This document shows, piece after piece, positions 31,732-56,892 of a DNA stretch of 64,000 nucleotides. A program made the position numbers and the translations under genes. The notes under the pieces are model-generated. The model saw only the letters and a list, made by a program, of their open reading frames with translations. It ran no database searches and was not told the DNA's origin. The stretch's first letter is position 1; each line of letters starts with the position of its first letter. This DNA is from Cristatella mucedo (Eukaryota; Bryozoa; Phylactolaemata; Cristatellidae), in contig WPIO01000165.1 in NCBI GenBank assembly GCA_009760855.2, forward strand, positions 35,001-99,000. Direction: 5' to 3'.

Positions 31732-31757
31732 GAGAGAGAGAGAGAGAGAGAGAAGGA

Positions 31758-31819
<62 letters not shown>

Positions 31820-31865
31820 GGAAGGAGAGAGAGCAAAAGAGAGAAAGAGAGGGAAGGAGACAGAG

Positions 31866-31958
<93 letters not shown>

Positions 31959-32005
31959 AAGAGAGAGAGAGAGAGAGAGAGAGCAAGAGAAAGAGGGAGA
32001 GAGAG
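31640..32005. repeat. (GA)n tract, copy 2
   Basis: Counterpart of 18246-18617. It has a longer pure GA run and fewer GGAAGG interruptions. Confidence 0.95.
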
Positions 32006-32238
32006 ATGGTGCATGTGAGAGAGGGAGAGAGCGAGAGATCCACTCTGCCCGGAGAAATGCTGGCGGCACGTTCCATCAGCCAGACTTTGATGATCCTGGA
32101 GATTATTGGGATTCCTAGAGGGACCGGCGGTTACGTCATTATCTGCAATTTAAAAAGTATGGCTGGACACTTCAGTTTGTCAGCGAGTATTTTGGCCTTC
32201 CAACCGGTTATAAACTGTGGCGGGAGCTGTGAAAAAAT

Positions 32239-32378
32239 TAAAATATGCTTTATTCATTTGCATAGCGCCATAAGAAAACTAAATGTCTACCGAGGCGCTT
32301 GGCATATGCCGCCACGGGGCCACGAGCCCACGACTTCATTTACTCCAGGCGAGCACTTTACCTCCCGGCCAAGCTGAG
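32239..32378 (-). mobile_element. SINE-B copy in duplication copy 2
   Basis: Same insertion as 18850-18988. Confidence 0.7.
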
Positions 32379-33312: not shown

Positions 33313-33484
33313 AATTTAACAGCCTCCTTTTTTTATAGTGACAGAAGAGCCTTTACGGCTCTCACTGACGCTTGCAGCGGCGATAAAGGATCGCCCACCG
33401 TAGGAATCGAACCCCACGACCGTGGGGCCTAGGTCATGAAAAGCAACCGTCTTATCTAGCGAGCCATCAGAGGCTCATGCGAGG
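33313..33484 (-). mobile_element. SINE-A copy in duplication copy 2
   Basis: Same insertion as 19925-20095. Confidence 0.8.
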
Positions 33485-33492
33485 CCCGTAGA

Positions 33493-34555
33493 ATAGTATG
33501 TCACATTTACGCTGACGATTATCAGCTGTATTTGTCATTCAAACCGTCGGAATCTGCTGCAGCAACTGATAAACTGAATGCTTGCATTGCCGACGCTCGA
33601 TCCTGGATGTTGGACAATTTCTTGAAACTGAACGACGATAACACTAAAACTGCTGCTCCTAGGAAACCCTAAGCGTGTGGCTGGATTAGAAGGCTTTGCT
33701 CTTCAAATAAGTGTAACTGTTGTGCGACCATAATCACGGGTTCAACATTTAAGTGTCGTTTCAAGCTACTGCCAAAATTTATTAGAGCTACATTAAGAAG
33801 ATTGCTTCCATCACAGCTAGCCATCACGTCCGATTCACATTTCCAATCAAGGAGCCGCCGTCTTCCACGATGGCTTACATTAAAATTATCTGGCTCCTTA
33901 GTTCTGTCTCGGCTAGATTATTGTAATTCCCTTTTGCCTGGGCTACCGAAAAAAAGAAACTAGGCCACTGCAGATGGCTATGAATGTGGCTGCAAGGGTA
34001 GTCTTCAAATCCTAGAGGTCTGGTCAACTGTCTCCTTTGCTAAAAGAGCTAGGATGGCTGCCGGTTGATCAACGAATGCAGAGCAAAGTTCTTACGCTGA
34101 CCCACAAGGACTGCCACGGTTGGCTCCTCCATACCTAGCTGAACTGCTGTACCAGTGTCAGCCCCCTCTTGCCCTCAGGTCCTGTATGGACGATAAGTTA
34201 GCTGTTTCATTCATCTGCTTAAAAACCGCTGGTAACAAAAGCTTTAGCTCTGCAGATGCTAGACTGTGCAGCTCGCTTCCGCAATTCTTGCGCAACGACA
34301 GCTGCTCTCCTGCTCCCAACTCTATCACATCTCTTCTTGTGGTCCTGAGCTGCTACTTCAATACCACTTAGTACCTCAACTGCTCTCCTGACTCTGTCAT
34401 GTTTCCCGTTTTCTCTTTGTTGCGCGAGATGAAGTCTGTTGGCTACCGAATGCGTACTGAAAGCCGCTTAGGCTGTGAGTGTGCTATACAAAAACTCTCC
34501 TGCGTAAAAACCCACATAGTCTTTATGGCTTTGTGGAGTTACAGACTGAGATATA
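33493..34555 (+). pseudogene. LINE-1 fragment in duplication copy 2
   Basis: Same insertion as 20105-21165, starting at the YADD box. A few homopolymers are one base longer here (for example near 33645, 33950 and 34205), which moves the frames relative to copy 1. That pattern would fit sequencing error in one copy as well as real change. Confidence 0.88.
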
Positions 34556-35683
34556 TTACATTTTTCAACCATTTTGAGCTGTTTTGCTGACTGTGTCTGC
34601 AGTAGTAAGTCAACGGGAGTTGTCTGCACTTTAAGTCAACGGATAGTTTGCTGCTCTCGTTACCTGCTCGATGGGAAACTGATTTTTGGCTAGTTTAGGC
34701 GCGGCGACTGTTTGTCTGTTTGTCATAAGTGAGAGCACAATGACAACGAAAAAAAGACCGCTCGCGTCAATTTAAGGGTTCCTGCATTTCCATGACTCGT
34801 CGTAGCATTTCTGCTGATTTAAAAAAGCGTTCTCCTGTCGTATTAAAGACGTGACATTTTATGCGGTTATTATCTCTCGCAACTTCGAATGCGCAAAAAA
34901 AGTCCCGTGATCTTTGCGCATGTGAGTATCAACCGACTTCGTGATGCAGAGACAATGCTGCGATTGCTTAATTTGCACGTTGTAAAAGCAGATGCACGTA
35001 CGTCCGCTTCTGATTCGTAGTGATGTCACTGCGTTTCGAAAGAGTCTGCGTGCAGTGCGGGCATGATGAATTAAAGAGAACTTCAGAATGCGGCTTGGCA
35101 AACTTGTTTTACTGAGGGTAAGGTCCGGCGACTGGTTTGGTACGACGGTGCTAGATAGATGATGCAGGATATCAACCTAGTCGCAATCGCTTGTGCAACT
35201 GAGCAACTGAAGCGTAGAGCTCTTTCTGGGCTGTGCGGTGAGTACTCAAAACTGCTGTTCAAGTTTTGAGATCGTTCGACAGGTTACCCCCCCTTAGCGG
35301 GGCAGTGAACGAGGGGGCCTCCCACCCCTAGTCTTGGGCCACCCCACAACCGCCTAAACCGATGACTATATTATTGCTTGCTTTTCTACTAGAGAAGCAA
35401 CCGCCGAGTTCTCGTAGAATAAGCACCAGTGGGTCCGCTGGACACACTGTGGACCTTCCTCTTCCGGTTGGATTTGCGCCAGAGAAAAAATGGGACCCAT
35501 TCATTGACTTTTATATATTAACCCCCCTCCCCCGGCAGTGGTCGGTTGTCATGGCCACTAGCTCCCGCGTGGTTTCATGCGTTCAGCAATAAGCAGCCGC
35601 GTTGTCTGTTCGGTCTTTCGACGTGTGCGACTGCTCATAAATGTTCACGCACGTAGCGAACACCATGATTTCTCGCTATAATT

Positions 35684-35742
35684 ATCTATTATTATAATTA
35701 TCTATTATTATAATTATCTATTATTATAAATATCGCTATATT
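35684..35742. repeat. TAATTATCTATTAT tandem repeat, copy 2
   Basis: Counterpart of 22262-22318. Confidence 0.85.
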
Positions 35743-35904
35743 TATTCTCATTACTTGCGGGTCTTGCCCCCTACGTGAAGATAATATTGCGTGTCTCGCC
35801 CGCCGCTCAGACGAAAATCCGCGTTTTGCCTCTCGCTCTTCTGATTCATTGAAGCACTTATCGATTCAGCTGCCAATGATGAAGCTGAAACAAAATTTAA
35901 AAAA

Positions 35905-36090
35905 ATCCTAGCTGTTTAAACAGCCTCTTTTTATATAGCGACAGAAGAGCATTGACGGCTATCACCACCGCTTGCAGTGGTGACACAGGATCGCCCACCG
36001 CAGAAATCGAACCCACGACCTCGGGACAGAGGTTGTGAAAGCAACCGTCTTACCTAGTGTGCCATCACGGCTCACAAAATAACCTGATGA
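35905..36090 (-). mobile_element. SINE-A copy in duplication copy 2
   Basis: Same insertion as 22490-22670. The stem base CACCGCTTGCAG is kept here, where copy 1 has CACCGTTTGCAG. Confidence 0.75.
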
Positions 36091-36804
36091 CCCAATGACC
36101 CGACGACCTGTGACCCGATGAAGCTGAAACTGAAAAAATGGGCTGCGACCACTTAATTTAAGGGGTGCCAGTCAGTGAAACGTTGGCGTGCTTCGTTGGC
36201 TAGATTACAGTCGCCCTATAGATTAGTAGAGGTTCCTGAATTGTAAGCTGTGGGAGCAGAATATTGCATGATCTATAGTTTGCTAGGTATAGATGGACAT
36301 GTTAAGCAATCATTAGTGAGCTGTACTGTAGGCTTTGAATGCGGCGACTGCACGGCGATTGCAGGCGATGCGCACTATGGGAGTAGGCGGTTCCAAGTTT
36401 ACGGCGTAGACGTGCTGCATCGGATCTGGACACTCTGGATTGCTGCCGCCTGGACACTCTGGATTGCTCTGCTTCTGTCGGCCGCGCGTGCCAACCGGAA
36501 GAGCAGCTAGCGCGACTCGCTAGTCTCGGCGCGAGGGGGACAGGCTCTACCCGTCGACTCGTCAAGCGTCCGCAAGGACCAGCACCCGTTACGTAGCGCT
36601 GCGTTTGGGCTTTCGGTGACGGAGTTCAGCTCTCCAGTTCAGTCACGTCTTGAGTCTTCCGCTTCGTCTGGTTGTTCGCATCTCATGTACGAAGGCGTTC
36701 GGTGGCAGCTCTGGCGACTCACAAATTCGAGCGCCGTTTAATGTGACCCTGTTGGCTCGGAATTCCAAGGAGCGCCGTGGCTATCAGAACGCAGCGAGCA
36801 ATCG

Positions 36805-36845
<41 letters not shown>

Positions 36846-37256
36846 TCTCGAGCTGTCGAGCATCCAGCCGTCCCGATTTGCTAGCACCACGCTGCTCACT
36901 TTCTTAGCTGTCCAAGTGCCTCAGCTGCTATGCTGTGACTTTCTCTTGCTGCCGAGTGACGATGGCAGCAGTTGGCTACCTCGCGCACACTGAAAGCCGC
37001 TCAGGTTTCTAGTGCCCGTGCCATAGATATGTTTTGCTGCCAAATACGCTCGCTTGGGCCTCGCGGCTTTTCGGAGTTGCAGAAGGTGATGGATTGCATT
37101 AAAAAGACCGATCTCGCCGCCGCCGCCGACGACGCAGACGACGGCGCGGGAGAGTATGTGAGTGTGTGACGCTCGAGAGCATCGCACAACGGGAGCCGGA
37201 GCGTCGTCCGTGGCGACTCGTCGATGGCGATTCCAACTCGGCGCTGAAGCTGCTTT

Positions 37257-37418: not shown

Positions 37419-37448
37419 TTATAGAGTTTCGCCCTGAAAATCAAAGCG

Positions 37449-40400
37449 ATGGCCACGTGTAACCCTCCAGCGGAATTCACATTTGATGAGCCGGCGTTAT
37501 GGACGGCTTGGAGAAATCGTTTTCGCCATTATGCGACAGCAACGAAGTTGACGGCGGAGGAACAGGACGTACAGATAAGTACACTCTTGTACGCCATGGG
37601 GGCGCAAGCTGAAGCGATTTTTGACACCTTTACCTATGAGGTCGACCAAGTGAAGACGTTAGATCTCATCTTGGGCAAGTTTGATAACTATTTCATACCG
37701 CGAAGGAATATTATCCACGATCGGGCTATGTTCAACCGCCGCTGTCAAAATCCGGGTGAATCCACCGAGGCATTCATACGCGCACTATTTGATTTAGCTT
37801 CGCACTGCGAATACGGCGCGATGAAAGATGCGTTGGTCCGAGATCACTTGGTTGTGGGCTTTTCCGACCTTAAACTTTCAGAAGCCCTGCAACTAATCCC
37901 CGACCTTACGTTAACTGTGGCAGTACAAAAGGCGCGTCAGGCGGAGACGGTAAAATCACAGCTGAGTCTGCAGCACCCGATTTCAGATGTCTCTGAGGTT
38001 CGTCGGCGAACACAGTCCGGTGACTGTACTGAGCCCTACGTCTTAGAGGCTAGCAGCCGCACAGACCGTAGGAGAGTTAAGCTTTTCGACGTAAGAAAAG
38101 CTAACAGCTGCCGGAATTGTAACTCGGCTCACACTTCTGGACACTGCCCAGCGCGAGACGGCCGTTGCAATACCTGTGGGAAGTTGGGCCACTACGCAGT
38201 GCGGTGCCAATCACGCATAAAACCCGACGCTAAAATAAGAGAGATTGCGGCTGAATCCGACGGTGAGGACTACACCGTGGATGCCGATACAAAGCCTGTA
38301 GCGGTGGAGTGCCAGTCGGCAAGGGCATCATCACCCTGGCAAGTGGATTTGTTCGGGTATGGAATGAACATTCCATTTAAAATAGATAATGGCGCCGACA
38401 TAACCGTCATTACGGAAGACACGTATGGTCGACTGCTACGACCACCTCACCTCGAGCCTACAGCAGCAAAATTACACAGCGTCGGCAACCGCCTGGCTTA
38501 TAAAGGTACCTTCAAAGCGAGGTTAAAGCGGAAAGGAACAATTTATCTTCTGCCGGTCTACGTAGTCGCTGGAGCAAGAAATAATCTCCTCAGCGGACAA
38601 GCTTCTCTATGCATGGGACTGATTAAACTCAGCCTAGAGGAGACTATTCTTCGAGACCCGGTATTTGGAGAGATCGGATTGATGCGATGTCAGCCGGTGA
38701 AAATTCGTCTCAAACTTGATGTGGAACCATACTGCGTACATACAGCCCGCCGCATACCCAAACCGCTGTTTCCTTTGGTAAAGGACAAACTTCTTCGAAT
38801 GGAGAAGAACGGCATCGTAGAACGTGTATCGGAGCCGACCGAGTGGTACTCCCCAATCGTACCGGTCCTGAAGCCCAACGGCAAAGTGCGCCTTTGTGTC
38901 GGCTTGAAGTGCTTAAATCAAGCAGCGGTTCGTGAAAGGTACGTGCTACCTACGCTTGATGAAATTTTGCCTCAGCCTGTTGGTGCTACAATGTTCTCAA
39001 AGTTGGACGCCTCTAGCGGATATTGAGCTATTCCGTTGTCCCACGAGAGCATTCGCTTAACGACGTTTATAACACCGTTTGGACGTTTTTGTTTTCGCCG
39101 GCTGCCTTTTGGTATAACTAGCGCGCCGGAGATCTTTCAGCGACTAATGCATGACCTCTTGGGTGAGATCGAAGGTGCAGCTATTTATATGGACGATGTT
39201 TTGGTTTATGGATCCACGGCGGCTGAGCATGACGATAGATTGCGTCGTGTTATCTCCGAAATTTCAAAGTCGGGCCTAAAGTTGAATAGAGACAAATGTA
39301 TATTCCGCCAGCCAACTTTGACGTTCTTAGGGCATGTTATTGATGCCAGCGGTGTCCGGCCGTCAGACGACAAAATAGAAGCCATCCTCAACCTCCCTGA
39401 TTCAACAAACATAGCCGAACTAAAGAGATGCCTTGGTATGATGAACTACCTCGGCCGGTTTGTGCCGAATGTGGCCATGGTCTCAAAGCCGCTAAATGAC
39501 CTCCTCTCGTCTGACTCAGTATGGTACTGGGGGCATAGCCAGAAGAAAGCATTCCGGGAAGCAAAGTTGCTTTTAACAAAGGCACCAGTGTTGGCTTATT
39601 TTGACCCAAAAAAATCGGCGATTGTCAGTGCCGATGCCAGTAGCTATGGTCTAGGTGCCGTTCTGCTGCATTGCCATGGAGCGGGAGAGCAAGATGTGCG
39701 ACCTGTCGCATTTGCATCCCGCACGTTGTCAGGCGCCGAAACGAGATTCGCTCAGATCGAAAAAGAGTGCCTTGCGGCGGTGTGGGCGTGAGAGAAGTTA
39801 AGTCGGTTCCTTATTGGTCTGCCTTCTTTCGAGCTTCGTACTGACCATAAACCACTTATACCGTTGCTTATGACTAAGGACCTTGACCAGGTTCCGGTTA
39901 GATGCCAACGCCGAATGATGCGTTTTAACCCTCACGCCGTGTAGGTGCCTGGGAAGACCCTTGTGACAAGTGATACGTTGTCAAGAGCACCACTGCGTGG
40001 GAGTGAGGAACACGACCAAACCGAGGCTGTTCAACTCTACGTAGACACTGTTGTTTCTAAATCGCTTTCAGTAGCTCGCTTGAGCGAAGTAAAGCAGGCT
40101 ACTGCTGGCGAAGTGAGCTACAGGATGTCATTAAGTATACGCTGTCAGGGTGGCCTACATCGAGCAAGGGCCTACCGGAAACCTTGCGGAAGTACTTCAC
40201 CATAAGTAGCCATCTTTCTGTGTCAAATGGATTACTACTGTATGACGATCGCATATATATCCCTCAAAGCCTTCAGGCTTTTCTGTTGGAGCGGATCCAC
40301 GACGGCCACCAGGGGGTGACCAAATGTAGGGACCGAGCAAGGTCGTGTGTATACTGGCTAGGAATTAGCTAAGACGTTAAGACATTTGTCGATTCGTGCA

Positions 40401-41368
40401 GCTTCTGTCAAAAGAACCAGAGGAGACAACTACAGGAGCCACTCATCCCGACACCGTTGCCCAGTGTTCATTGGCAACAAGTCGCTGCCGATCTCTTCGA
40501 ACACGAGGGACGACAGAACCTGATTGTGATCGACTTTTACTCCAGATATATGGAAATCACTCCATTATCTAAATCGACGACCAAAGAAGTTGTGGCCGAA
40601 CTGCAGACCGTATTTGCTCGCTGGAGCATACCAGAGTCGTTACAGTCTGACAATGGTCCACAATTTTCATCTCTAGAATTTGGCGATTTCGCGAGACGAT
40701 ATGGGTTCCAACATGTTACGACCAGTCCACATTTTCCACAAGCGAACGGGGAAGTGGAAAGAGCGGTGCAAACTGCCAAATCTATTGTGAGGCAGCCTGA
40801 TCCGTGCCTCGCATTAATGATACAGAGGTCGACGCCACGCACCTCTACAGGCTTCAGCCCTGCACAACTGATCATGGGACGGCAGATTAGGACGACGTTG
40901 CCAGTGCTCCCTCGGCATGTCGAACAACAATGGCCTGCAACGGAAAAGGTGCAACTCAACGACGACCGTGCAAAAGAGCTTCAACAGCACTACCACGATC
41001 GCCATCATTCTGCTCGCCCACTTCCACCTCTTCAACCCGGCCAACCGGTATTAGTGCGCACTGATGGTGAAAGCAGCTGGAGCACACATGCAACGGTGAC
41101 AGCTCAAGCAAGTACACCTCGGTCATTTGTCGGGCAGACTGATAATGGCAGCACTCTTCAGCGGAACAGAAGGCATCTTCGACCGATTGACACCGATCCA
41201 CAGGTCACCAACAGCGAATATCCTGGCAGTTCCCTACATCTACCGAATTCTACACTTGCAGCTCAAGATCAGTCTCCAAGTATTGCCGATGAGATGCACA
41301 CCTCTCAAGGTCAAACGACAACAAGGTCTGGCAGGCTGGTAAAGCCAGTCCGAAGGCTAGATCTTTGA
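37449..41368 (+). pseudogene. Ty3/gypsy gag-pol, broken by stops and a shift
   Basis: Domains in order: a gag capsid-like region (from 37449); two zinc knuckles near 38110-38212 (CRNCNSAHTSGHC, CNTCGKLGHYAVRC); an aspartic protease (FKIDNGADITVI, with DNG where DTG or DSG is usual); RT (LFPLVKDKLLRM start, [21 protein letters not shown]); RNase H ([13 protein letters not shown]); integrase (zinc finger then IDFYSRY, SDNGPQF, PQANGEVERAV, giving the D-D-E triad). The first frame of 525 residues ends at a TGA (39024-39026) where a Trp is expected after DASSGY. Further stops lie at 39789, about 39942 and about 40370, with a frame break near 40130-40200. No envelope gene. Autonomous movement is not possible from this copy. 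Confidence 0.93.
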
Positions 41369-41724: not shown

Positions 41725-42500
41725 TAAGTGTGGCAGCATGCACAGTGTCAGCACGCATAAGCACGTAAAGGAAGAATCACACGGACCCACTAAATACTGT
41801 GATTAATAGATGAGTGTTAAGTTTTTTTTAATCTGGTAAAGTCAGGGGATGTCCAGACGCCAGTCTTATAGAAGTAAGCTCCAAACTTCTAAGAAAGCCA
41901 TCATGGTAGACGGTCCTTAATCTTAGACAGGGATCAAACGCGATGGGTATTATTGAAAGCGATCGCAGTGAAGAAAAACTTTAAAACTTTAAGCATTAAC
42001 AAAAGAGACACCTAAATTCCGAGCACAGGATAACGGCCAGGCTACTTCATCACCAATTAGATGAGCGAGGTCTGATTTGGCATAGGGGTCATTTTTATGT
42101 CGCTTAGTTGCCCGATCAACACTGTGAGTATTTTGTGCACGCAATTTCTGTAAAATGACTTGCCCTTTTTGGTGTTAAGTAATAAACCATAAATCCTGAA
42201 CAACCGACCTAGCTATGGTAATCAGTATCGCCCTGCACCGTCGCCCAAAGAGATACTGACATAGCTATGGTAATCAGTGCTGCCCTTCCCCCTTAGCCCA
42301 AATATTTTATTAATTATTATAATAATATTTAATTATTATTAATACGTCACTCTTAGTGTCGCACCGCATGCAGGCTTGCGCTGACCTGTCTCGGGCGATG
42401 CTGAACTTCTAGCAAATCTGAAGTCTCATTTCCAATTACCAAATAATAATAACAATGATAATAACGCATTTGATAAAGCGCCATCACAGCACGCGCCTTT
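41725..42500. repeat. Old paralogous block, copy Y2, with LINE-2 remains
   Basis: Collinear with 25075-26470. The first 120 bases are reversed LINE-2 3' UTR (CAGCATGCACAGTGTCAGCA). TAGCTATGGTAATCAGTGCT occurs after a small local duplication of the CTATGGTAATCAG text (42211-42280). Confidence 0.75.
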
Positions 42501-42789
42501 AGCGTCAGCCGTCATCTGATACTGGAGTCTGGAACAATTTCACGATTTGAACAGTCTCAGTACTCACAGCTCAGCGCAGAAAGAGTTTCGCGCTCCAGTT
42601 GCACAGTTGAATTTTTATAAAAGAGTCTGCGAATCGATCGATATCTTGGTCGATATCTGCATCGTCTCATCATACCAGACCGTACATTCAGTTATGCGAC
42701 ATTATGGCTTATTTCGTCTCGATAAGCAACCGCCGAGTGTGTGTCGAATAAGCGCTACTATTGTACGCTATAATCCTTCAATAAATGCG

Positions 42790-43330
42790 AATCTACTCCC
42801 GCCTGCATGAATAATTTGCGCGTTTAAGACGCATGCACAACAATTTTGCAGGTCTTTCCCGCCCCAGATAGAAATCCTCGCACTGCCCAGTGGGCGCAAG
42901 TTTGCCGGTGGTCGCAGAGCCCGGCACAAATCAAATGCGCCCGCACCTCGTGATGTACAAGACCAACTCGTTAGCGCAGAGCTTTCAAGTCGATGGCCAC
43001 GTTGGGTCACATCTCTGCAGCCTCGGTCACATCTCTGCAGCCTCAGCTTGGCCGGGAGGTAAAAGTGCTCGCCTGGAGTAAATGAAGTCGTGGGCTCGTT
43101 GCCCCGTGGCGGCATGTGCCAAGCGCCTCCGTAGACACTTAGTTTTCTTATGGCGCTATGCAAATGAATAAAGCATATGTTAATTTTTTCATGGCTCCCG
43201 CCAAAGTTTATAACCGGTTGGAAGGCTCAAAGTACTCGCTGACAAACTGAAGTGTCCAGCCATATTTTGTAAACTGCAGATAGTGACGTAACCGCCGGTC
43301 CCTCTGTAGGTTACATAACTTTGGAGCAAT
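42790..43330. repeat. Inverted copy of 18720-19243
   Basis: TTTGCAGGTCTTTCCCGCC, CCCGCACCTCGTGATGTACA and TTCATTTACTCC-type text appear reversed relative to copy 1. It includes a SINE-B (43075-43175, plus orientation). A 17-base unit GGTCACATCTCTGCAGCCTC is duplicated in tandem at 43005-43045. Together with 43345-43690 it forms an inverted, internally deleted copy of 17040-19250. Confidence 0.85.
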
Positions 43331-43369
43331 CCTAACAATCTTTAAAGGGTCTTCTTTCTCGCTCGGTCT

Positions 43370-43493
43370 GGGAGAAAGCGCGCTCCGCTCGGCCGCACTC
43401 GGTCGCGGCCACTCGAAGCCGGTAGAAGCGAACGGTAGGCAACGGTCGAGCTTCCGCCTATCGATTGTCGATCTTCCGTCTAGGTCCTGCAAG
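43370..43493 (+). promoter_or_regulatory. 5' UTR and proximal promoter of gene 2
   Basis: Homologous to the region upstream of gene 1: GGGAGAAAGCGCGCTCCGCT, CGGCCGCACTCGGTCGCGGC, AAGCGAACGGT, then CTTCCGCCTATCGATTGTCG just before the start codon. A TATA-like CTTTAAAGG lies farther up near 43340. The Ets-like core of gene 1 is changed here (CCGGTAGAAG). Confidence 0.55.
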
Positions 43494-44105
43494 ATGAAGC
43501 TGCTGCCACTGCTGCTGGTCGCCGTCGCGCTGTCGGCCGTGCTCGTCCGCGCCGTCTCGAGTGACGTCGCGGGTGAGCTCTCTGGCGCCGCGAGTGCGCG
43601 GCACCGCCGCCGGCGTGTCGCCGACCTGCTCCGGCAGAGGCCGGAATAACTCCGCGGAGTCCCGAGTGGTCATCTTTGATGACTGGTGGAGGCGAAGTCC
43701 GCCCACTCTGCGCCGCCTCCGTCGCCTTTGCCGCCGCCGCCTTTGCCGCCGCCGCTGCCGTGGCATCGACCGGCCGAGTCGTCTCGCATTGCTCACCCAT
43801 TGATTTGCATTTTTGAGCCTCTATTTGCTGTCCGCCGGTTTTGGAGATTCTGGGAGCTCGAGGCCCGAGGCGTCGCGGAGGCAGAGGCGTCGGGGGCAAG
43901 GAAGAAGGCGGGGGGGGGAACCGATGTCCCCACGACTCTTGATCTCCCTGGGACTTATGCCATATTTGATTTCTTGTTGAGAGTTGAGAAGCTTTTGAAG
44001 AAACTTGACCAGACCAAACCACGTCAGCATTGTTTAGACCTTGGATGTTTCTAGTGTTCACACGTCAATGGAACAGAATATACAACTATTTGCAAAATAT
44101 AACTA

Positions 44106-44151
<46 letters not shown>

Positions 44152-44682
44152 TATATATTATTATATTGATATTATATATTACTATATATTAATATAATGC
44201 GATTATATTAATATAATAATATTATATAATAATAATATATTATATGTATAATATTACATATAATATTATATTATATTGTATGTTGTGCAACGGAATATAC
44301 GACTGTAAGGTTAGAACTGGGTGCACACGGGAAGCGAAGGATTCAATGTTAGCTCGAGGCTAAAGCTAAAAAGGTTAGAGGTTAGAGCTAAACGACCGCG
44401 GAGGCTGCGGAGTGATTCGAAGCCTTATTAGGAAATATTTCGTACGGCTAGGCTGAAGCCAGAGAACGAAGTGACCTAAACGTGAGCGATTGAAGCTTGA
44501 AGCCAATTTTTAGCCTTTATCAGGTGCACTATAATTCTATTGCAGGGGAAATCGAATACGAGAGCGCCGTTGCCAAGAGGCGCGGCGGCGGAGGCGGCGG
44601 CCGAGGAGGAGGACGCGGAGGCGGAGGACGCGGATCGAGCGGGTACGGCAGGGTATCAGGATTTGGCAGCAGGATCGGATAG
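43494..44682 (+). CDS. Secreted precursor, Gly/Arg-rich peptide (gene 2)
   Basis: Two coding exons give 71 residues. Exon 1 is 43494-43572, ending GCGG|GTGAGC. Exon 2 is 44546-44682, after the acceptor ATAATTCTATTGCAG. The split codon (G|GG) joins in frame, in the same phase as gene 1. The signal peptide MKLLPLLLVAVALSAVLVRA is nearly that of gene 1. The Glu-rich run of gene 1 is absent, and the acidic pro-piece is instead SSDVAG plus EIEYESAVAKR from exon 2. After the KR(R) convertase site comes a Gly/Arg-rich mature peptide of about 33 residues (RGGGGGGRGGGRGGGGRG, then SSGYGRVSGFGSRIG) with a C-terminal Gly that would permit amidation. It has no cysteines. Gly-rich cationic peptides of this kind are known antimicrobials in arthropods and others. 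The link between the exons is inferred from splice sites, phase and shared order; transcripts are not available. Confidence 0.75.
43573..44545 (+). other. Intron of gene 2
   Basis: The first ~100 bases (to about 43670, ...AACTCCGCGGAGTCC) are homologous to the start of the gene 1 intron (17142-17045), and then homology stops. The rest holds a (CCGCCTTTG)n-like stretch at 43710-43760, an AT-rich tract at 44105-44285, GTTAGA repeats, and a small reversed LINE-2 RT remnant at 44440-44520. Confidence 0.7.
44105..44285. repeat. AT-rich tract with (TA)n
   Basis: (TA)n followed by degenerate TATTATATTAAT text. No gene. Confidence 0.9.
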
Positions 44683-44775
44683 CAAAAGTCGCCCCGTCGC
44701 TCCGGCTAATTAGTCACTTCGGATTACGACTCGAAACGTTCGCCCATCGATTGCGGCGAGTTCTCATTAAGCTAA

Positions 44776-44781
44776 AATAAA
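44776..44781 (+). terminator. Putative poly(A) signal of gene 2
   Basis: AATAAA about 94 bases after the stop codon, in AGCTAAAATAAAGTGCTTAC. The same site and its surroundings are conserved after the orphan exon (27412-27417), which supports that this is a transcript end. Confidence 0.6.
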
Positions 44782-44924
44782 GTGCTTACAGACTTTACTT
44801 CAAGCAGTGTTTCGTCCCTAATCTGTTTAATCAAGCTCTGATTTTGAGAAGAATCGCTGCGCGCGCGCATTGAAAAGTATGCCCGCCGCTATGAGCCGGT
44901 AAACGATGAGCTTCCGTACGGTGC

Positions 44925-45065
44925 GTTTTCTCTTTTTCGTTTTTGTTTTTTCTTTCGCTCTTTCTTTCGTTTTTCTTTCCTTTCTTTCTGCATCTTTTTT
45001 TTCGTTTTTCCATTTTTATTCTTCTTTTTTTTCTTTTTCTTTCTGTTTTTCTTTTCCTTTCTCTT
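44925..45065. repeat. Polypyrimidine (TTTC)n tract
   Basis: About 140 bases of T-rich TTTCTTTC text. Phe/Ser frames here are artefacts. It abuts the DNA element that follows. Confidence 0.85.
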
Positions 45066-45775
45066 TTTCTTTTTGCTTTGAGTTGCGAGCTGAAATTCGG
45101 GTTACGAGCCAGCTTGCGATACTCCGCCGCTAGTTGCCGCAGCGAACGTCGCGCTGCGTGTGGTTACTTGGGCCAGTGACGGTAGGGCAGCGGACGACCT
45201 TCCGTTGCAAGACGCCGCCGTACGACCCGGGTGTGACGCCAAGCGCAGGCCTGCTGGTTCGCTCAGAGCCGGCGTTAAGTCCGGCTACGGCAGGAACAGC
45301 TAAGTACGTACTGTGCCCTATTGAGGCAGTATCGTCGGATGAGAGTTCATCGCACGACTGATAACAATCGTCGCGTCCGCGTAAAGGCCCGGCCAATAAA
45401 CTGAAAGCGAGAAAAACCCGGCGAAAATGGAAAAATCGGCGAGTAAGATTCAGATATTCACTTCAGCCTGTCTCCTCTAACTCTAATAGCATCTTCAAGT
45501 CGTCTGATCTCCAAGTTACTCCTGTACATTAGGATTAATAAAACCAGTTTACTGCAAGACATTATATTGTGTTGTCTTCAAAACAATTTCCGTTATTTAT
45601 AAGTACATGCTTTAATTTTAAAACGTGTGACTAAACTCGCAATGTTTCTCTGGGTCTGGAATGGATTAATGGCATTTCAATAGGGAGAATCGATTTGACA
45701 AGGTAGGAGCAATTTGAGTTACGAGCTCTGGCACGGAGCTAATTAAATTCGTAAACCGAGATACCACTGCAATTT
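45066..45775. mobile_element. MITE-like DNA element, second copy
   Basis: TTTGAGTTGCGAGCTGAAAT at the left and AATTCGTAAACCGAGATACC at the right (reverse: GGTATCTCGGTTTACGAATT). Diverged relative of 28921-29716. The left terminus has been lost at the pyrimidine tract. Confidence 0.5.
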
Positions 45776-45959
45776 TTTTACGACGTTGTAAGCTTGTCGC
45801 GCTGTTAATTTAGTTGTGTGACAAAAGGTTGGGTGAGCAAAGGCACGACGGTGTAAGCTTTTGGTCTTGGGGAGGAATATTTTGGATTCTAAAGTTCCGC
45901 CTTTGTTAAGTTGCGAATGCCGAAAAGACAGCGAAGCTGCAAATTCGGGTTCCAGTGTG

Positions 45960-46805
45960 GGACAGGTGATGCTGTTGTGCGACAGTCACCACATTCACAA
46001 AATGTAGGTGTCATTTTCGACAGCTGCCTCAATTTTTAAGACCTTCATTCAGAAGACTGCTTCTACAGCTAGCCATCACGTCCGATCCCTATCCAAGATT
46101 AGAAGCTGTCTTCCACGGTGGCTTGCAAAAAATTTAACTGGCTCCACAGTTCTGTCTCGGCATGATTATTGTAATTCCGTTTTGGCCGGGCTACCAAATA
46201 AGCAACTAAGCCACTTCAAAAGGCTATGAATATGGCTGCAAGGCTAGTTTAAAAGTCCCAGAGGTTTGATCACGTGTCTCCTTTACTAAAAGAGCTAGGA
46301 TGGCTGCCGGTTGATCAACGGATACAAAAGCAAAGTTCTTACGGTGACCCAAAAGGTCCGCGACGACTTGGCTCCTACATACCTAGCCGAACTGCTGCAC
46401 CAGTCTCAGCCTCCTCGTGCCCTCAGGACCTTTATGGACAATACAGTAGCTGTTCCTTCCTCTGCTTAAAAACCGCTGGCGATAAAAGCTTTAGCTCTGC
46501 AGGTCCTAGACTGTGGAGCTCGCTTCAGCGATTCTAACGCAACGACAATTAGTCTCCGGCTGCCGACTATGGCTCATCCTTTCCAGTGGTTCTGAGCTGC
46601 TATCCACGCTACTCGCAACCTCAACTGCTCTCCTGACTCTGCTATGCTTCCCACTTTCTCTTTGTTGCGTGAGACGAAGTCTGTTGGCTACCGAATGCGT
46701 ACCGAAAGCCGCTTAGGCTGTGAGTGCGCTATACAAAACTCTCCTGGGTAAAACCCACATAGTCTTTATGGCTTTGTGGAGTTACAGACTGGGATATATT
46801 GCATC
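45960..46805 (+). pseudogene. LINE-1 fragment: RT C-terminus and 3' end
   Basis: VIFDSCLNF-type start, then KTASTASHHVRSLSKIRSCL and KELGWLPVDQRIQ, with several frame breaks. Ends GAGTTACAGACTGGGATATA TTGCAT. Paralogous to 29930-30115, but not truncated. Confidence 0.85.
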
Positions 46806-47565
46806 CTTCAACCAGCTAGAGCTGTTTTTCTGACCGTGTCTGCACTAGTAAGTCAACGGAAGTTGTCTGCACTTTAAGTCAACGGATAGTTTGCTGCTCT
46901 CGTTACCTGCTTGATGGTAAACTGATTTTTGGCTAGTTTAGGCGCGGCGACTGTTTGTCTGTTTGTCATTAGTGGGAGCACAACGATAACGAAAAAGACC
47001 GCTCATCAATTTAAGGCTTCCTGCATTTCCATGACTCGTCGTAGCGTTTCTGCTGATTTAAAAAAGCGTTCTCCTGTCGTATTGAAGACGTGAAATTCTA
47101 TGCGGTTTTTATCTCGCAACTCCGAATGCGCAAAAAAGTGCCGGGATGTTTACGCATGTGAGTATCAACCGACTTCGTGATGCAAAGACAATTCTGCGAT
47201 TGCTTAATCGGCACGTTGTAAAAGCAGATGCATGTACGTCCGCTTCTGATTCGTAATGATGTCACTGCGTTTCGAAAGAGTCTGCATGCAATGCTTGCAT
47301 GGTCAATTAAGGAGAAATGCAGAATGCGGCCCGGCAAACTCGTTTAACTGAGGGTGAGGTCCGGCGACGGGTTTGCTAAGACGACGTTGCTAGATAGACG
47401 ATGCAGGGTATCAAACTAGTGGCAATCGCTTGTGCAACTGAGCAACTGGAGCATAGAGCTCTTTCTGGGTCCCAGAGATGAAGTCTGTTGGCTACTGAAT
47501 TCGTACAATATTCCTATATTCGACATTCATATGCACGGAGTCGGTTGCGCCTCAGCTATACTTGT
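46806..47565. repeat. Third, diverged copy of 21180-21860
   Basis: Shared text: AGTTGTCTGCACTTTAAGTC, GGTTTAGGCGCGGCGACTGT-type, and GCACGTTGTAAAAGCAGATG. Differences from copies 1 and 2 are spread evenly. Confidence 0.8.
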
Positions 47566-48160
47566 AACTTTCTCTTTTTGCTGAGTAAGATGACGGCAGC
47601 TGGCTACCGCATGCTCACTGAAAGCCCACTGGCCTTTAGTGAGCATGCGCCTTGGATATGCTCTGCTGCCGCATACACTCGCTTGGGCCTCGCGGCGGCA
47701 GAAGGTCGAGGTTGCAGAAGTTGATGGATTGCTGATCTCGCCGCCGACACAAGCGACAGCTCGCGAGACGGCTCGCGTGCACGATGCGCTCAAGAGCACG
47801 TGACGAGAGCCGGAGCGTCGTCCGTGGTGACTCGTCGACGGCTTCTGCGACTCTAACTCGTCGCAGAAGCTTGCTGCCTCATCCGACCGACGATCAAGCC
47901 GAACTACGGCAGCGGCGGGACCTGCTCGCATCTCATGTCGCTCTCTTTCTCCGACCGCTTTCTGCTCGGCAAACTCTGACGGCGAACTCTGTCGGCAGTG
48001 GATCCGAGAAACTCGGAAAAAACTCTTCGGGGACAGGGGCGGGCGTGTGACGTGTGCAGAGTCTGAGGTTCTAGGCATGCGAGGGCCGAGAAAACATGCC
48101 ATGGTGGCCGCGACTGGCGATGGGCCACTCGTACCTGAAGACCTTTGACATATACTCGTA
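47566..48160. repeat. Third, diverged copy of 23530-24220
   Basis: GATGACGGCAGCTGGCTACC through GCGGGACCTGCTCGCATCTC to TGCAGAGTCTG. No gypsy element and no LINE tail at the positions where copies 2 and 1 carry them. Confidence 0.8.
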
Positions 48161-48164
48161 TCTT

Positions 48165-48447
48165 TCGTCAACTTAAAACACACCTATTTAGGATAGCATA
48201 TAGTGGGTCCCTGTGATTCGTCCTTGATGTGCTTATGCGTGCTGACACTGTGCATGCTGCCACTAGCCACTTTTGCATGCTGACCCTGTGCATGTCACCC
48301 CTAACCATATTATTCATTGTGTTTGTTTTTCAAGCATGATTTTACTTACCATTCAATTGCATTTCCCTTTGCAGCAAATGTAAAGCGACTAGAAAGAGAT
48401 TAAGTTCTCTGAGGGCGCTTTATCAAGTGTATTATTATTATTATTAA
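48165..48447 (+). mobile_element. LINE-2 3' end
   Basis: AAAACACACCTATTTAGGAT, the GCATGCTGACCCTGTGCATG motifs, AAGCATGATTTTACTTACCA, GAGATTAAGTTCTCTGAGGG and (ATT)n. It splits the third copy of the dispersed sequence, which resumes at AAAGATGCACCGAGCG. Confidence 0.9.
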
Positions 48448-48984
48448 AGATGCACCGAGCGCCAGGCGAGCGCCAGTGCCGATAGTTCTGCGAAGGCTGA
48501 CCGACCGCCTTGGCAATATTGATGCAAGGCTATTTTCCATCTTTCTAGTGAGAGGCTATTCTCGGACGAGACCGCCATTCGGAGACGCTTTGCTGGCGGG
48601 GCGGCAAAGCGGGTATGGTTCACGGTGAATTTCCGATCACACAATCTAATCTCGGTTCAATCTGCGGTATACAATTGCACCGGAGGGCCACGACGCCACG
48701 TGGCTATCCCAGACGCTCTCCGAAGTGTTACATGCCCTACATGTAGCGGCTCTCGTGCTAAAGTCATTCCCGCAGACACAGCACAAACAGCAGGGCTAGT
48801 CCTTGCCGACCAAGACTCAGCTTCCTTGCTGAATGTATTGATGACATCCGCACACGGATGGCAGTAAACTTTCTTATGTTGAATGACGATAAAAATCCAA
48901 ACCTACTAGCTGTGAGCAAAACAAGCGTGATTTAGAAATTGGAAGACTTAACACTCAAAACCGGCTCTGCCAGCTAATCAAGAC

Positions 48985-49400
48985 CACATCGGCTCCGCAG
49001 AGATTCAACCTAAATCTGCATTCCTGAGTAGGTCTCTGCCCTTTCACATCTCTGATGACTCTGTGGAGTGATTAGCTATAAAGCCTGATTGGAACTCACT
49101 TGCTAGACATTAAGTTTAAATGTTAGAGTTAAGCTGGTCTGCAGCTGATCATTCCAGTGTCTTTGATAGGAGCAGCAATATAGGATAGAAGGAAGATCGG
49201 GCGCAAGTTCTGTCGGTCTAGCGTTAATCTCAATTTTATGAATGGCCTTGCGATTGTCTTTGTGACTGATGGCGAGATAATATCTGAGGTTAAGGAAGTT
49301 TGTATTATGTTAGTCATGCTGGGCAGCTGCAAATCAAAGTATCTGATGAGGAGAACAGAGTGTTTAGGGTCTAGAGTGAAAATAGTCTTCCTAGACTGTA
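48985..49400 (-). mobile_element. Old LINE-2-like fragment, RT N-terminal part
   Basis: The minus strand reads MTNIIQTSLTSD, VTKTIARPFIKLRLTLDRQN and LRPIFLLSYIAAPIKDTG, recognisable against the LINE-2 copy at 60493-60987 but strongly diverged. Confidence 0.7.
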
Positions 49401-49424
49401 GACTGGGAGATGAACTTTAATGAT

Positions 49425-50640
49425 AATAATAATAATAAAAATCATGCATTTGATATAGCACCTCTGAGAACTCAATCTCTTTATTGACGCTTTACATCTG
49501 CTGCAAATAAAGCACTATTGAATGGTTATTTATAGCATGTTCAATGATAACAAGAATGACATGGTTAACGGTGACATGCACAAGGTCAGAATGCAAATAT
49601 GGCTATTGGCAGCATGCAGTGTCAGGACGCTTATGCACGTAAAGGACGAATAGCACAGACCCACTAAATGCTGTGATAAGTTTTTAGTCCTTTTTTAAAT
49701 GTGGTAAAGTCAAGGGATGTCAAAACGCAAGTCGGAGGATGGTTGCAGACGGAAAGGAAGCAAACGAACTAAAGTACGGTCTCCAAACAAATTTCGGTTC
49801 GTGGGGGGGAAAGGTAAACGATTCAATTAAAGCGAAGCAGTTGGTACGATGCTTAGCTTGGTGGGGGAGTAGTTCTGAGTGGTAGGTTGGGGCCAAAGAA
49901 TGAGGGGAACTAAAAGTGTTCGGCAAAACCCTGTAGCCATTTCGCTGGAGCCAGTGCAGTTTGGTGAGAAGTGGTGTGATGTGGCAGCTGCTACGCTCAC
50001 GACAGACACGCCTAGATGCCGAGTTTTGCACCAGTTGTAAACGCCTGATTGCACAGGCCGGTAGATCAGCAAGCAGTGAGTTACAGAAGCCAAGACGGGA
50101 TGTCACAAATGCATGGATCGGTTTAGATGTGGTATCCCTGTCTAAACAAGCCCGAATTGTAGCATTGCTATGTAACTGAAAGTAGGCAGACTTGACTGTG
50201 GAGCTGATGTGGTTGTCTAATGAAAGGTCACTTTGGAACATGACACATAGATTTCGTGCAGATTCAACAGGACACATGCTGGCTAAGCAGATTTTGTGCG
50301 TTAACCTTTTCAGCTCTCTGAGGTACCCAATACTTCACAGGTTCCTCGGGTGATGTGTGTTAATTCGTATCAAATATCTGGAGTGTCCCACTGTGATAGG
50401 ACCTGAACCATTGCAGTGCAGTGCAGTGATGCACAGGCGAGATGAGAGGTGCCTATGAAGGACTTGAGGATCGATAGTATCAAAAGATGCCGAAATGTCG
50501 AGCAAAACAAGCAGATAGACTCTACCAAAGTCTGCATTTCTAAGTAGCTCCGTCATACGCAGGAATAAATGCTGACTGCAGAGTGATTAGCTCTACGACC
50601 AGACTAGAGCTTACTAGCAAGGTTTGCAATTTGACGTGCG
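49425..50640 (-). pseudogene. LINE-2 copy: RT to 3' end, broken
   Basis: Tail at 49425-49500, then the 3' UTR with GCATGC motifs. The minus frame 50277-49720 carries VESARNLCVMFQSDLSLDNH, FVTSRLGFCNSLLADLPACA and RRLQLVQNSASRRVCRERSS. A separate frame near 50335-50556 has VLLDISASFDTIDPQVLHRH. The YADD region between them is missing. Confidence 0.85.
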
Positions 50641-50849
50641 GTCATTCGCTAGCGGCCGACTTGATGGTGGACATAAAAAAAGCTGCAAGGACTTGAGCGA
50701 GACCGTCGCGTGGATATTTGAACTATTGGAACTCTGATCTTCACTATTTTGGTAACCAAGTAGCAAGAGTTGCCGTCTGCTTCGTATGATGATGACTAGG
50801 CAAGGTGCTTACCATGAAGCGGTCAAGGAGATGGTTGCCGGTCAAAATC

Positions 50850-51005
50850 AATGCTAATTTAACAGCCTCGGTTTATATATCGGCAGAAGAACCTTCAAGG
50901 CGATCGCCACCAATTGCAGTGGTCAATAAAAGATAGACTACTACAGCACACGAAACCACGACGTAGGTCTTGCAGAGCACCTTACCCCTGGGCTGAGACC
51001 AATGA
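50850..51005 (-). mobile_element. Diverged SINE-A copy
   Basis: AACAGCCTCGGTTTATATAT, GGCAGAAGAACCTTCAAGGC, and GAGCACCTTACCCCTGGGC. The B box is degraded. Confidence 0.55.
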
Positions 51006-51079
51006 GGGTTAACAAATCCTGACTAATTCATCACCAGCTGCTGCGGCTTACTGATGTTAATCGGTGACTTAGCCAAAAT

Positions 51080-52740
51080 GAAACATAGCACCCCAGTCCT
51101 GACAGAACCAGGGAGCTCATATTCTCAGCAAGCTATCGCGGTAGACGGTCTTAGACAGTGATCAAACGCATTCGGCTAGTTGTGAAAGCGATCTTCGTAA
51201 AGAAACTTTAAACCTTTAAGCATTGAAAAAAGACATCAAAATTCCAAGCACACGATGACGTTCAAAATACTTCATCAATTAGATGAGCAAGGTCTGATTT
51301 GTCACCGGGGTCAAGGTATTACTTTCGGCGACCCCGGTCACCCTTCGGCTACACATGCGAAGTGCCGTAACAGAGATGTAGTTATCCGATTGTGTTATAT
51401 AAATGAATTGTATATATCTTACATTTTCAAGGTCACCGAGCACGCATAGGGTGGCCAATGAGGCTGCAAGCATTACTCATGCAATAGCACACCAGGTAGA
51501 CTGGCCGACGATAACCTGCTGTCTTGACACAGACAATTAAAAAGCTAGTGTCGTAAAAATTAATTTTAAGAAGATTGAAGAGGATTAGCCACCTTGCAAT
51601 TCTGAACAATGGTAGCTCAAGATGTAGGTCCTCTGATGACCTCTCGTCAGACGACCACATCAGCTCCACAGTCAAATCTGCCTACTTTCAGCTACATAAC
51701 ATTGCTAACATTCGGGCTTGTTTAGATAAGGATACCAAGTTGGTCCATGCATTCGTGGCATCATGTATCGACTTCTGCAACTCACTGCTTACTCGCATAC
51801 CGGCACGTGCGATCAGGCGACTGCAGTTGGTGCAAAACTCCTCAGCTAGGCTTGTCTGTCGTGAGTCACAGCTGCCACATCGCACCACTTCTCGCCGACC
51901 TGCACTGGCTACCAGTCAAGCAACGGATTGCCTTCAAGGTTTTGTCGCTCACTTTTAGGTCACTTCATTCTTCGGCTCCAGCCTATCTCTCAGATGCACT
52001 CACCCATCAGGCCAAGCATCGTACCATCCGCTTTTCGGAATCCAACTGTTAGCCAATACCTCGTACAAACCTCAAGTCCTTTGGAGATCGTGCATTTAGC
52101 TCGAATGCTCCCAAATACTGGAACTCACTTCCGACTTGCGTCAGAACATCCCCTGACTTGACCACATTTAAAAAGAACTTAAAAACACCTATTTAGGACA
52201 ACATTTAGTGGGTCCCTGTGAGTCGTCCTTCATGTGCTTATGAGTGCTGACACTGTGCATACTGCCGGTCACTAACCACACTTGCACGATGACCATGTGC
52301 ATGTGACCCCTAACCATGTTATTCATGTTGTTTAACAAGCGTGATATTACCATCCAATCGCGTTTCCTTTGCAGCAAATGTAAAGCGCCTAGAAAGAGAT
52401 TGAGTTCTCTGAGGGCGCTTTATCAAGTGTATTATTATTATTAGGTCTGAGCCTGATGCTGGCGATATCGATAGAATACTGCAAGAAGCTGAGCGAGCAG
52501 AATTAGCCAAGGTCGGTAAAGGTCATCCACAGGTCACAGGAAGACCGATTGAATCTCATCTGTTGACTGCTCGCCCAGCCAGAGAACAGTCAGAATGGAC
52601 CAACCCGACAGAGCAGCTGCCAGCTTTCTACTGTTTCCGGCGATGCTCAACTCCTAGCACGTCGAAGGTCTCACTGCCAATTAAAAAATCTGCTTCAAAG
52701 CCAGGCCAATCCGAGTGCTTTCATTCACTAGCTCAAAGCA
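51080..52740. repeat. Old paralogous block, copy Y3, with LINE-2 insertion
   Basis: 51120-51320 and 52450-52740 are collinear with 25240-25450 and 25690-26440 (AGCATTGAAAAAAGACATC, GATGAGCAAGGTCTGATTTG, AGAGCAGCTGCCAGCTTTCT). Between them lies a LINE-2 copy at 51615-52445. Confidence 0.7.
51615..52445 (+). pseudogene. LINE-2 fragment: RT C-terminus and 3' end
   Basis: [40 protein letters not shown] and LVCRESQLPHRTTSRR (frame break), then complete 3' UTR and (ATT)n. A deletion and frame shift lie near 51870. Confidence 0.88.
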
Positions 52741-54682: not shown

Positions 54683-56892
54683 TCATTGGTCGGCAGCCTC
54701 GTCACCGCTTGCGTCGGCGTCCTCAAACTGACCCGTATCCATTACGTCGTCGCAGACGCCACCTGCAAATCACTGCTAGCCTGCGACGACGGCACGGAAA
54801 GCACGCAGCTTTTGCAAGGCCCTCGGCCCGTCCTCCAGGCTGGCGCCAGCCGGAGGTCCGCCTGGCGCCAGCCTGGAGAGGTCGCAGAGCAGCAGCTACA
54901 GCTGCAGCGGCCCATAGCGAACAGAGGCTAGCACCCTGGCACCCGCAAGTCCTCCTGCTGACCGCACCCCGGAGGGCTTGGATGCATGGCAAAGCAGCAC
55001 ATTTATCGCAAGCGACGCGGCACGTCTATCGCAAGCGACGCGGCGCGCGAGCAAATAGCCACGTCACCTCCGTCGCCCGTGCCGTTGCTTCCGTGTCCAG
55101 TCGTGGCGAGCCGGCTGCCTGGAGCTGCATGACCAGCGGTACCGAAAGCGGGCAGACGACCGTCAACTCCGGCCGCGTCGTCGCCGGCTGCGCCGTCGTC
55201 CTCGCCGCCGTAGTACCATTCTGCGTCTGCGAATTTGGCAAGCGGCAGCCAGTGACGAGAGCGGCGGCGGCTGCACCGGCGTCGACGTGTACCGAGCGCG
55301 CGCATGCACGCTCACCCCACATGCCGAGACCGCAAGCGGGATCCGGGCCAAATCGGCTGCCAGTGCTGAGGCGGCCGTGGCAGAAAAACGCAACGCTGCG
55401 AGCAACGGACACGAACGGCTGCCTGCTCGGGCGGCCGTGGCGCGGCAAAACTCACCCGAATCGCTGTCGGCCTGCTCGTCCGGATGAAGCTCTTGCGCCC
55501 GGCACATGGCCTGGTACATGGCCTCCACTGCAGCGCAGCAAATCGAGCGAGTGCGCGCGTCAGGCAGCTACATTCGAAGAGAGCCGCGCCGGAAGCGCTG
55601 GCCACCAGCGACCGGCGGCCAGCAGCACCGGCGGGTACGATGCGAAGCAACACTCACGGCTGCCAGGCTCTTGCGGAACGAAGCGCAGCTCGGTGGGTCC
55701 GCTTTCCTCATCCTCTTCTCCTTCGTCTCCGCCGTCGTCATCGTCGTCTCCTCCTCCTCCACCAGAGAGCTCGGCGGCCGGCGCCGTGGCGGCATCTGCT
55801 CGGAGACGGAGGCCTGAGTGTGAGCACAAGCCCTGCACAGCCCCTGCGCCGCTGCCGGGCCTTAGCGGTGAGCGACCGATGCCTTGCACCGCCGGAGCCG
55901 GAACGACTTGCTCCGGCAAGAGGCCGAATCCTAACTCGGCAGACGACTCGTCAAAAGCGAGCGGCAGAGGCTGCGTCCAGCTAATGCTCCCTCAATAATC
56001 GACATCAACATGACAAGTCATGTAATGTGCGCAACCGTGCACGTGCGCTGTGCTTGCACGGGCAGGCCCACGCAGCACAACGAGGCCACGAGGCGCTGTC
56101 AGGACGACCTGTCGGGTCGTCGGCTCGGTGTAGCAGCCTCGGGCGGCTCCAGCAGGCGGGGTGGGGGGCGGCGCGTGATGCATAATTGTCTTTCTACCGA
56201 GGCAGACGCAGGAACCGGAGCTGTAGCAGCAAGAGCAGAAGCCTAGAAAGAGACGAAGTCTCTGAGGGCGCTACGCAAATGTGTTATTATCACTACTATC
56301 TTGCGCGGATCTATTATCGTATGTCGACTCCAGTGCACTTCCTGACTTGAAAGGTGGCCATGAACCGGCCATCAGCTGACAACATGGAAGACCTGGCCAT
56401 CAGCTTCGGTGGGGCGACACACCGAAGCTGCCCAACGCGAAGCGCACAGGAACCAGCCAGCCCCTTTTCTAACACTTTTCTCTCTGCCGGACTGCATGCG
56501 AACCTAGAGACGATCTGCTTGGCAGACTGCTTTTGCATTTAAACCGGCGAGTGAACCGGCGAGAGGCAACAAAGAACGGGGAGACAACCAAGGGGACCAC
56601 GCCCCCTCATGCTGCCAGGAAGCTTGAGGGTCACAGGCAGCAGAAGCAGCCGCACACACAGCGCAGGAAGCTCCGTCGCTCATCATGCACGAAACGTGCC
56701 TGAGCGCCACGGCAGTAAGAGCAACGCGACAGTCGTCGGCCCGTGCGCGGCCACGTACCAAGGTCGCAGTCTAGAATCAAGTAAAGACACTGGTGCGGAA
56801 AAGCCCTCAGATCCTTCGAGATGGCGTGGATCGAGATGGCCGGGTACTCGACGGAGAAGCCTTGGCCATTCTCGCCAACCCACGAGAGGCGG
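54683..56892 (-). CDS. CLNS1A: pICln (chloride nucleotide-sensitive channel 1A / methylosome subunit), first exon not found
   Basis: pICln is a cytosolic PH-fold chaperone that delivers Sm proteins to the PRMT5 methylosome and the SMN complex. Exons on the minus strand: 56892-56759 (RLSWVGENGQGFSVEYPAIS, IHAISKDLRAFPHQCLYL); 55795-55658 (acidic GGGGGDDDDDGGDEGEEDEE, then SGPTELRFVPQEPGS); 55527-55456 (LEAMYQAMCRAQELHPDEQA, DSDS); from 55226 (DAEWYYGGEDDG, end uncertain); about 54872-54805 (SLEDGPRALQKL); and 54762-54683 (DVMDTGQFEDADASGDEAAD, stop). The first three junctions have GT-AG sites and exactly matching phases. Residues such as the SLEYPAISLHAISRD, EFRFVP, LEAMF..MC..LHPD and GQFEDAD blocks of the family are all recognisable. 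The start exon (up to TLYIAES) is absent from 56893-64000 as far as I can read. The splicing of the last two exons is unsure, since the gap is only about 40 bases. Confidence 0.88.
56222..56290 (+). mobile_element. LINE-2 tail in a pICln intron
   Basis: AGCCTAGAAAGAGACGAAGT then CTCTGAGGGCGCTACGCAAA and TGTTATTATC. A short 3' terminus antisense to the host gene. Confidence 0.7.

Follow-up and report, generated by a model that had tools for sequence, protein, structure and literature searches.

How do two neighbouring predicted genes come to carry the same signal exon in front of unrelated mature exons? A window of 64,000 nucleotides of Cristatella mucedo DNA (the whole stretch analysed here) raises this question, because a first-pass annotation had described in it two predicted two-exon genes, here called A and B, that seemed to be built in this way. 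The exons and reading frames given there for gene B stand after re-reading of exon 1 and exon 2, and the two predicted genes are laid out as follows.

43494-43572, plus strand: exon 1 of gene B, 79 nt, encoding the predicted signal peptide MKLLPLLLVAVALSAVLVRA followed by VSSDVA and ending in phase 1 before GTGAGC
43573-44545, plus strand: predicted phase 1 intron of gene B, resembling A as far as 43667 and, from about 44335-44362 onwards, the copies C and D described below
44546-44682, plus strand: exon 2 of gene B, encoding GEIEYESAVAKR with a predicted KR cleavage site and a Gly/Arg-rich peptide that ends in SRIG, then the stop TAG
17143-17275, minus strand: exon 1 of gene A, encoding MKLPLLLLVAVALSVALVRA and an acidic propiece, ending in phase 1
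15538-15656, minus strand: exon 2 of gene A, encoding AANADKR followed by KKWWKWKHHFSRFPYVKMYPNPYPYPVYGFGK, single copy in the genome searches

Joined at the predicted splice 43572/44546, the two exons of gene B translate as MKLLPLLLVAVALSAVLVRAVSSDVAGEIEYESAVAKR + RGGGGGGRGGGRGGGGRGSSGYGRVSGFGSRIG, and the acceptor of exon 2 (...tctattgcag) was graded good. In gene A the frame is open from the end of exon 1 at 17143 into exon 2, whether the latter starts at 15656 or at 15653, a tandem acceptor that keeps the frame. The donor is preserved between the two genes, and the splice phase is identical, as had been claimed, both introns being in phase 1. The stop codon TAA of gene A sits within an AATAAA (15537-15542, minus strand); if this serves as the poly(A) signal, very little 3' UTR would be left. 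More than half of the gene A intron is taken up by dispersed repeats (16171-17030), which begin about 28 bp past the end of the exon-1 homology.

That homology comprises two parts, which agree between A and B in order and in orientation relative to the gene:

43372-43667, plus strand: exon-1 module common to A and B (17382-17058 in A), made up of proximal upstream DNA, the predicted signal exon and the first 95 bp or so of the intron
42697-43305, plus strand: upstream part of the A-B block (19314-18728, minus strand, in A), with pieces of dispersed repeats inside

To judge the match, local alignment scores were set against those of 200 dinucleotide shuffles. For the entire exon-1 region the A-B score is 129.5 when the best shuffle reaches 38, and the same holds for each of its parts: 51.5 against 25 for the DNA 5' of the ATG, 82 against 35.5 for the exon-1 coding sequence, and 98 against 32 for the start of the intron (n=200 throughout). 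Promoter-proximal DNA, signal peptide and donor are thus homologous in A and B, each part lying above all 200 shuffles, and the earlier claim of a shared exon can even be sharpened: its upstream end lies some 0.7 kb further out, at 42697, and the likeness breaks off within the intron. In this upstream part 537 of 587 ungapped positions are identical. We considered 42697-43305 as a transposon and dropped the idea: it does hold repeat pieces, but the 609 bp block occurs at full length at three places in the genome, all of them in the cluster described here (40 of 453 candidates scored). Over the whole A-like block 81 of 825 positions differ, about 10%. Identity in exon 1 is the same in the coding part (53/61) as in the noncoding flanks (154/177, that is, 23 of 177 aligned positions differ), so it is no demonstration of purifying selection on the signal peptide. 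Could exon 1 simply be a single-exon gene that reads on into the conserved start of the intron? This was ruled out: read through, that stretch would be in frame 2 in A and in frame 0 in B, and hence is not coding sequence common to the two genes.

The second exons tell a different story. Aligned with each other they score 15, where shuffles average 14.8, and inclusion of the 3' flank gives 24.5 against a shuffle mean of 20.9 and maximum of 34. The claim that exon 2 of B is unrelated to exon 2 of A is therefore borne out at the level of shuffles, and it extends to the 3' flank. In the remainder of the introns (15657-16170 compared with 43668-44408) a GCC repeat is the sole common sequence. How much divergence would erase a true homology was gauged by letting exon 2 of B with its 3' flank evolve in silico under substitutions and indels, with 300 runs per level. 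None of the 300 runs fell as low as the observed score at 15, 22 or 30% substitutions; 46 of 300 did so at 35% and 125 of 300 at 40%. For the 3' flank alone the observed score was reached in 0/300 runs at 22%, 12/300 at 30% and 81/300 at 35%. The A-B block differs by only about 10%, and second exons related since the same time would still have aligned recognisably.

In fact, exon 2 of gene B does have relatives, at other places of the same contig:

27113-27340, plus strand: copy C of the B-type second exon, with acceptor and EIEYESAFTKR kept, the GGA run expanded, and frame and stop lost
29481-29297 of contig C72 (contig coordinates, outside the window), minus strand: copy D of the B-type second exon, with an open frame EEIEYEKAVAKRRGGGG...GYGLT
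44776-44781, plus strand: AATAAA of gene B; the surrounding stretch is retained in all three copies (B, C, D)

The match of B to C and D takes in the exon, the end of the intron and the 3' flank. Copy C keeps the AATAAA stretch, carries a frameshift and is without a stop at the homologous place; an exon 1 was searched for upstream and not found, the exon-1 stretch being absent from segment C. Between B and D the identity is 30/33 for the EIEYE..KR part, 154/184 for the end of the intron and 147/193 for the 3' flank. Across this divergence of about 20%, D has kept the acceptor, the phase, EIEYE..AVAKR and the AATAAA stretch, with the frame open. The stop TAG of B reads TCG in both C and D, which makes the terminal Gly peculiar to B; D is without it because its frame runs on. 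Gaps between B and D in the Gly-rich part come in multiples of three; the intron gaps of the same alignment do too, and the gap pattern is thus no proof of coding. The Gly-rich peptide of gene B arises from a GGN repeat, which holds a second open frame too, and this part is of low complexity.

Where, then, do the two halves of gene B meet? Comparison with segment C outlines a mosaic, in which three further features matter:

26680-26801, plus strand: part of segment C matched by B 42536-42673, which lies just to the left of B's exon-1 block
44110-44276: TA-rich repeat within the gene B intron, inside the interval that holds the junction
44449-44507, plus strand: dispersed-repeat remnant, presumably L2-like, which ends 38 bp 5' of gene B exon 2 and also precedes the C exon

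In B the A-like block (42697-43667) is bordered on both sides by C-like DNA, with matches to segment C in pieces of 41730-42673 on the left and in pieces of 44362-48883 on the right; 1688 bp of B (42674-44361) correspond to 126 bp in C. Distances, which rest on identities from trimmed local alignments, are 0.105 ± 0.012 for the A-B block, 0.168 ± 0.019 for the B-C exon-2 block (z 2.8) and 0.235 ± 0.028 for the B-D exon-2 flanks (z 4.2 against the A-B block); the exon-1 noncoding DNA taken alone gives 0.143 ± 0.031, inseparable from B-C (z 0.9). The B-C distance is itself uneven, 0.092 to the left of the A-like block and 0.168 to its right, and the age contrast could therefore partly reflect local rate or conversion, since conversion can mimic age differences between the halves of gene B. 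With this proviso, the two halves appear to have different histories and to meet between 43667 and about 44340; as they differ in divergence, the junction probably lies inside the intron. Copy D was also brought in as a further outgroup to place the junction, and its upstream side passes into repeats. A third and weaker A-B match, collinear with the others, pairs A 20495-20301 with B 41887-42073 at 60% and also matches C. It looks like a repeat, and could also be a sign of wider old homology between A and B.

Did segment C ever have an exon 1? The presence of an acceptor and a poly(A) signal points that way, and C could have lost the exon-1 block by deletion. As both signals are good, a deletion in C fits as well as an insertion in B. 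For this reason we did not keep as proven the simple idea that B arose by plain insertion into a C-like empty site.

We propose that gene B, which has two exons and encodes a predicted secreted peptide, is probably a chimera, with an A-like 5' half and a C/D-like 3' half joined within the intron. We favour this reading because the two homologies do not overlap, because they differ in divergence, because the block is absent from segment C and because the intron is in phase 1 in both A and B. Other readings must be weighed against it. Fast divergence of mature exons is often described for venom and skin peptides, and a whole gene could have been duplicated and its mature exon changed beyond recognition; such a history would account naturally for the layout common to both second exons, a KR and then a cationic peptide, about as long in A as in B, that closes with Gly or Gly-Lys. 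However, the 3' flank, which would be under no such selection, is also at shuffle level, the compared remainder of the intron has only the GCC repeat in common, exon 2 with its flank aligned better than observed in all 300 simulations at 15% substitutions, and the second exon of B is well conserved in D, hence not that fast. We rejected rapid divergence on the shuffles and the simulation, and think it quite improbable. Gene conversion could instead have homogenised the exon-1 block of two old genes, with no exon moved, which would agree with the lower divergence of the A-B block relative to the second-exon copies in B, C and D, and with the position of A and B some 26 kb apart in one cluster that holds other recent duplications. 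Such conversion needs prior homology at both places, and so an earlier exon 1 in common, and insertion or exchange of a segment better explains why C-like DNA adjoins the left end of the A-like block in B; we consider conversion unlikely.

It may also be that there is no such gene at all, exon 1 being dead or part of another transcript and 44546-44682 a GGN repeat beside a chance acceptor. Gene B is a prediction from sequence, its Gly-rich part is of low complexity, and the searches made of proteins, families and structures returned no relative. Against this stand the features that D has kept along with an open frame, and the donor and phase kept between A and B, and we give this reading, too, a small chance. 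A last and still more doubtful alternative is that the signal exon of gene A is alternatively spliced, either to its own second exon or to D, which lies 22.7 kb downstream on the same strand, and that intronic recombination also fixed the latter pairing as gene B. If true, splicing and genome rearrangement would explore one and the same set of pairs of signal exon and mature exon, a small combinatorial peptide factory!

If gene B is a chimera, recombination inside the intron would have joined A-like upstream DNA and the signal exon to a C/D-like second exon with its 3' flank, and recombination between dispersed repeats like those of the gene A intron is a possible route for the exchange. The donor gene of the block and the splicing of exon 1 to exon 2 we infer. 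We envision that the exon-1 block would supply a promoter and a secretion signal, such that a second exon with a phase-1 acceptor behind it would give rise to a secreted peptide. By motif and analogy, the predicted signal peptide would be removed after VRA (a site that we picked by eye, assuming the signal-cleavage rule), to be followed by cleavage at KR and by C-terminal amidation at the Gly. The peptide so released would be cationic and some 30 residues long, and could act in defence or signalling.

Of the motifs looked for in an amidated dibasic prepropeptide, KR precedes the putative mature peptide in both A and B, and the C-terminus, Gly in B and Gly-Lys in A, would allow amidation. After KR the predicted mature peptides are 33 and 32 residues long with net charges of +6 and +7, cationic in both genes, and the computed net charge of the propiece is -2 in B and -9 in A. 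No known antimicrobial or glycine-rich family was matched in Pfam (none at E <= 0.001) or NCBIfam (matches solely far below the family cut-offs). Among about 5.8 billion predicted proteins there was no homologue of the gene A protein at E <= 10 and none of gene B residues 1-44 at E <= 1. Solved structures included none matching the mature peptide of gene A, and for gene B gave 10 weak matches (E 0.017 to 0.68), for example to a collagen chain and to TAL repeats.

How far has this module spread? The first-pass annotation had proposed to list every copy of exon 1 with the second exons downstream of it, and in the genome (572 Mb in 688 contigs, some stretches masked as N, searched with limited sensitivity) that list comes to two signal exons, three second exons of type B and one of type A. 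Exon-1 DNA gave three matches, at the two genes only; B-type second-exon DNA matched at B, C and D, with 13 of 17 matches confined to the GGA repeat; and the A-type second exon was found in one copy. Matches to the GGA repeat aside, these searches found no second exon of either type outside the cluster, and all accepted pieces lie between 29 kb and 80 kb of contig C72, a cluster of about 50 kb. A protein search of the genome, which missed C, placed 22 of 26 matches off the contig (best E 0.044), and a further one, which missed exon 1 of B, placed 3 of 5 there (best E 5.4); none of these is credible. Over 288 kb of the contig there were three further weak DNA matches to the exon-1 module (E 0.002 to 0.084), one of them in a GCG repeat near 4270-4425 of the window. 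The signal-exon system is modular, but it is small and local, and no broad effector family was found. Thus, of the proposed modular secreted-effector family, the modularity holds, an effector role is conjectural and the word family is weak, the genome-wide search having found the signal-exon block at two genes only. Likewise, the view that one prepro exon is paired with unrelated mature exons is right as to the common block and the unrelated second exons, and less apt in the term prepro, since KR lies in exon 2 of both genes.

Genes of this general design are known from other animals. The title of Kuchler, Kreil and Sures 1989 (cited in PMC3731216) claims a 'homologous export exon' for skin-peptide genes of Xenopus, and the account in PMC3731216 describes a frog gene cluster with a shared signal-peptide exon as well as a gene that, lacking a terminal exon of its own, splices to that of its neighbour. 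As in Xenopus, one signal-peptide exon is here common to genes for different predicted secreted peptides. The likeness meant is one of organisation; only two copies of the exon were found here, and the Xenopus exon, going by the title, also encodes part of an amphiphilic peptide. For scorpion venom genes an origin by signal-exon shuffling with phase-1 introns has been argued (PMC5308243), and A and B resemble them, as that paper presents them, in the phase-1 intron behind the signal sequence, the common regulatory and secretory part and the unrelated mature parts. The scorpion case was made by comparing promoter modules and the phase of introns over many genes, whereas here one can see directly both the homologous block and where it breaks off in the intron; A and B further differ in having the KR site in exon 2 and in their possible amidation. 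In the KQY/KHI cassette effector families of the pea aphid the part that encodes the signal peptide is similarly conserved while the coding sequence behind it diverges (PMC7495047), but they are reported there with miniature exons and eleven KQY members, unlike the two exons and two intact genes found here. The Nasonia paper (PMC2853521) adds little to the case.

Genes A and B show three of the features looked for in signal-exon-shuffled genes: a homologous signal exon with homologous noncoding flanks, unrelated mature exons with rapid divergence rejected as the cause by shuffles and simulation, and phase 1 near the predicted signal cleavage site in both, the acceptors of C and D fitting as well. 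Judged from the DNA, the case is real and well preserved, and the gene birth it exemplifies is most likely of a known kind, the peptides themselves being predicted. Gene A with its copy of the block, gene B as the likely chimera, the paralogous segment C that has no block and the two relatives of the second exon all lie within about 50 kb, so that the direction, age and breakpoint of one shuffling event are directly testable.

Some features of the surroundings may be added. A stretch of 5.9 kb is present twice (17818-23672 and 31209-37083) at 98.4% identity, 13.4 kb apart; it takes in the upstream part of the gene A block (second copy at 32117-32703) and stops before exon 1. Between the duplicated stretch and gene B lies a retroelement (37425-41368), which from its layout we take to be Ty3-like; its reverse transcriptase, RNase H and integrase domains are spread over separate open stretches. 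Finally, CpG is depleted at 48001-52000 and 56001-64000 (0.72-0.76) with TG/CA raised, the other 4 kb bins being at least 0.97, which hints at methylation of some repeats.
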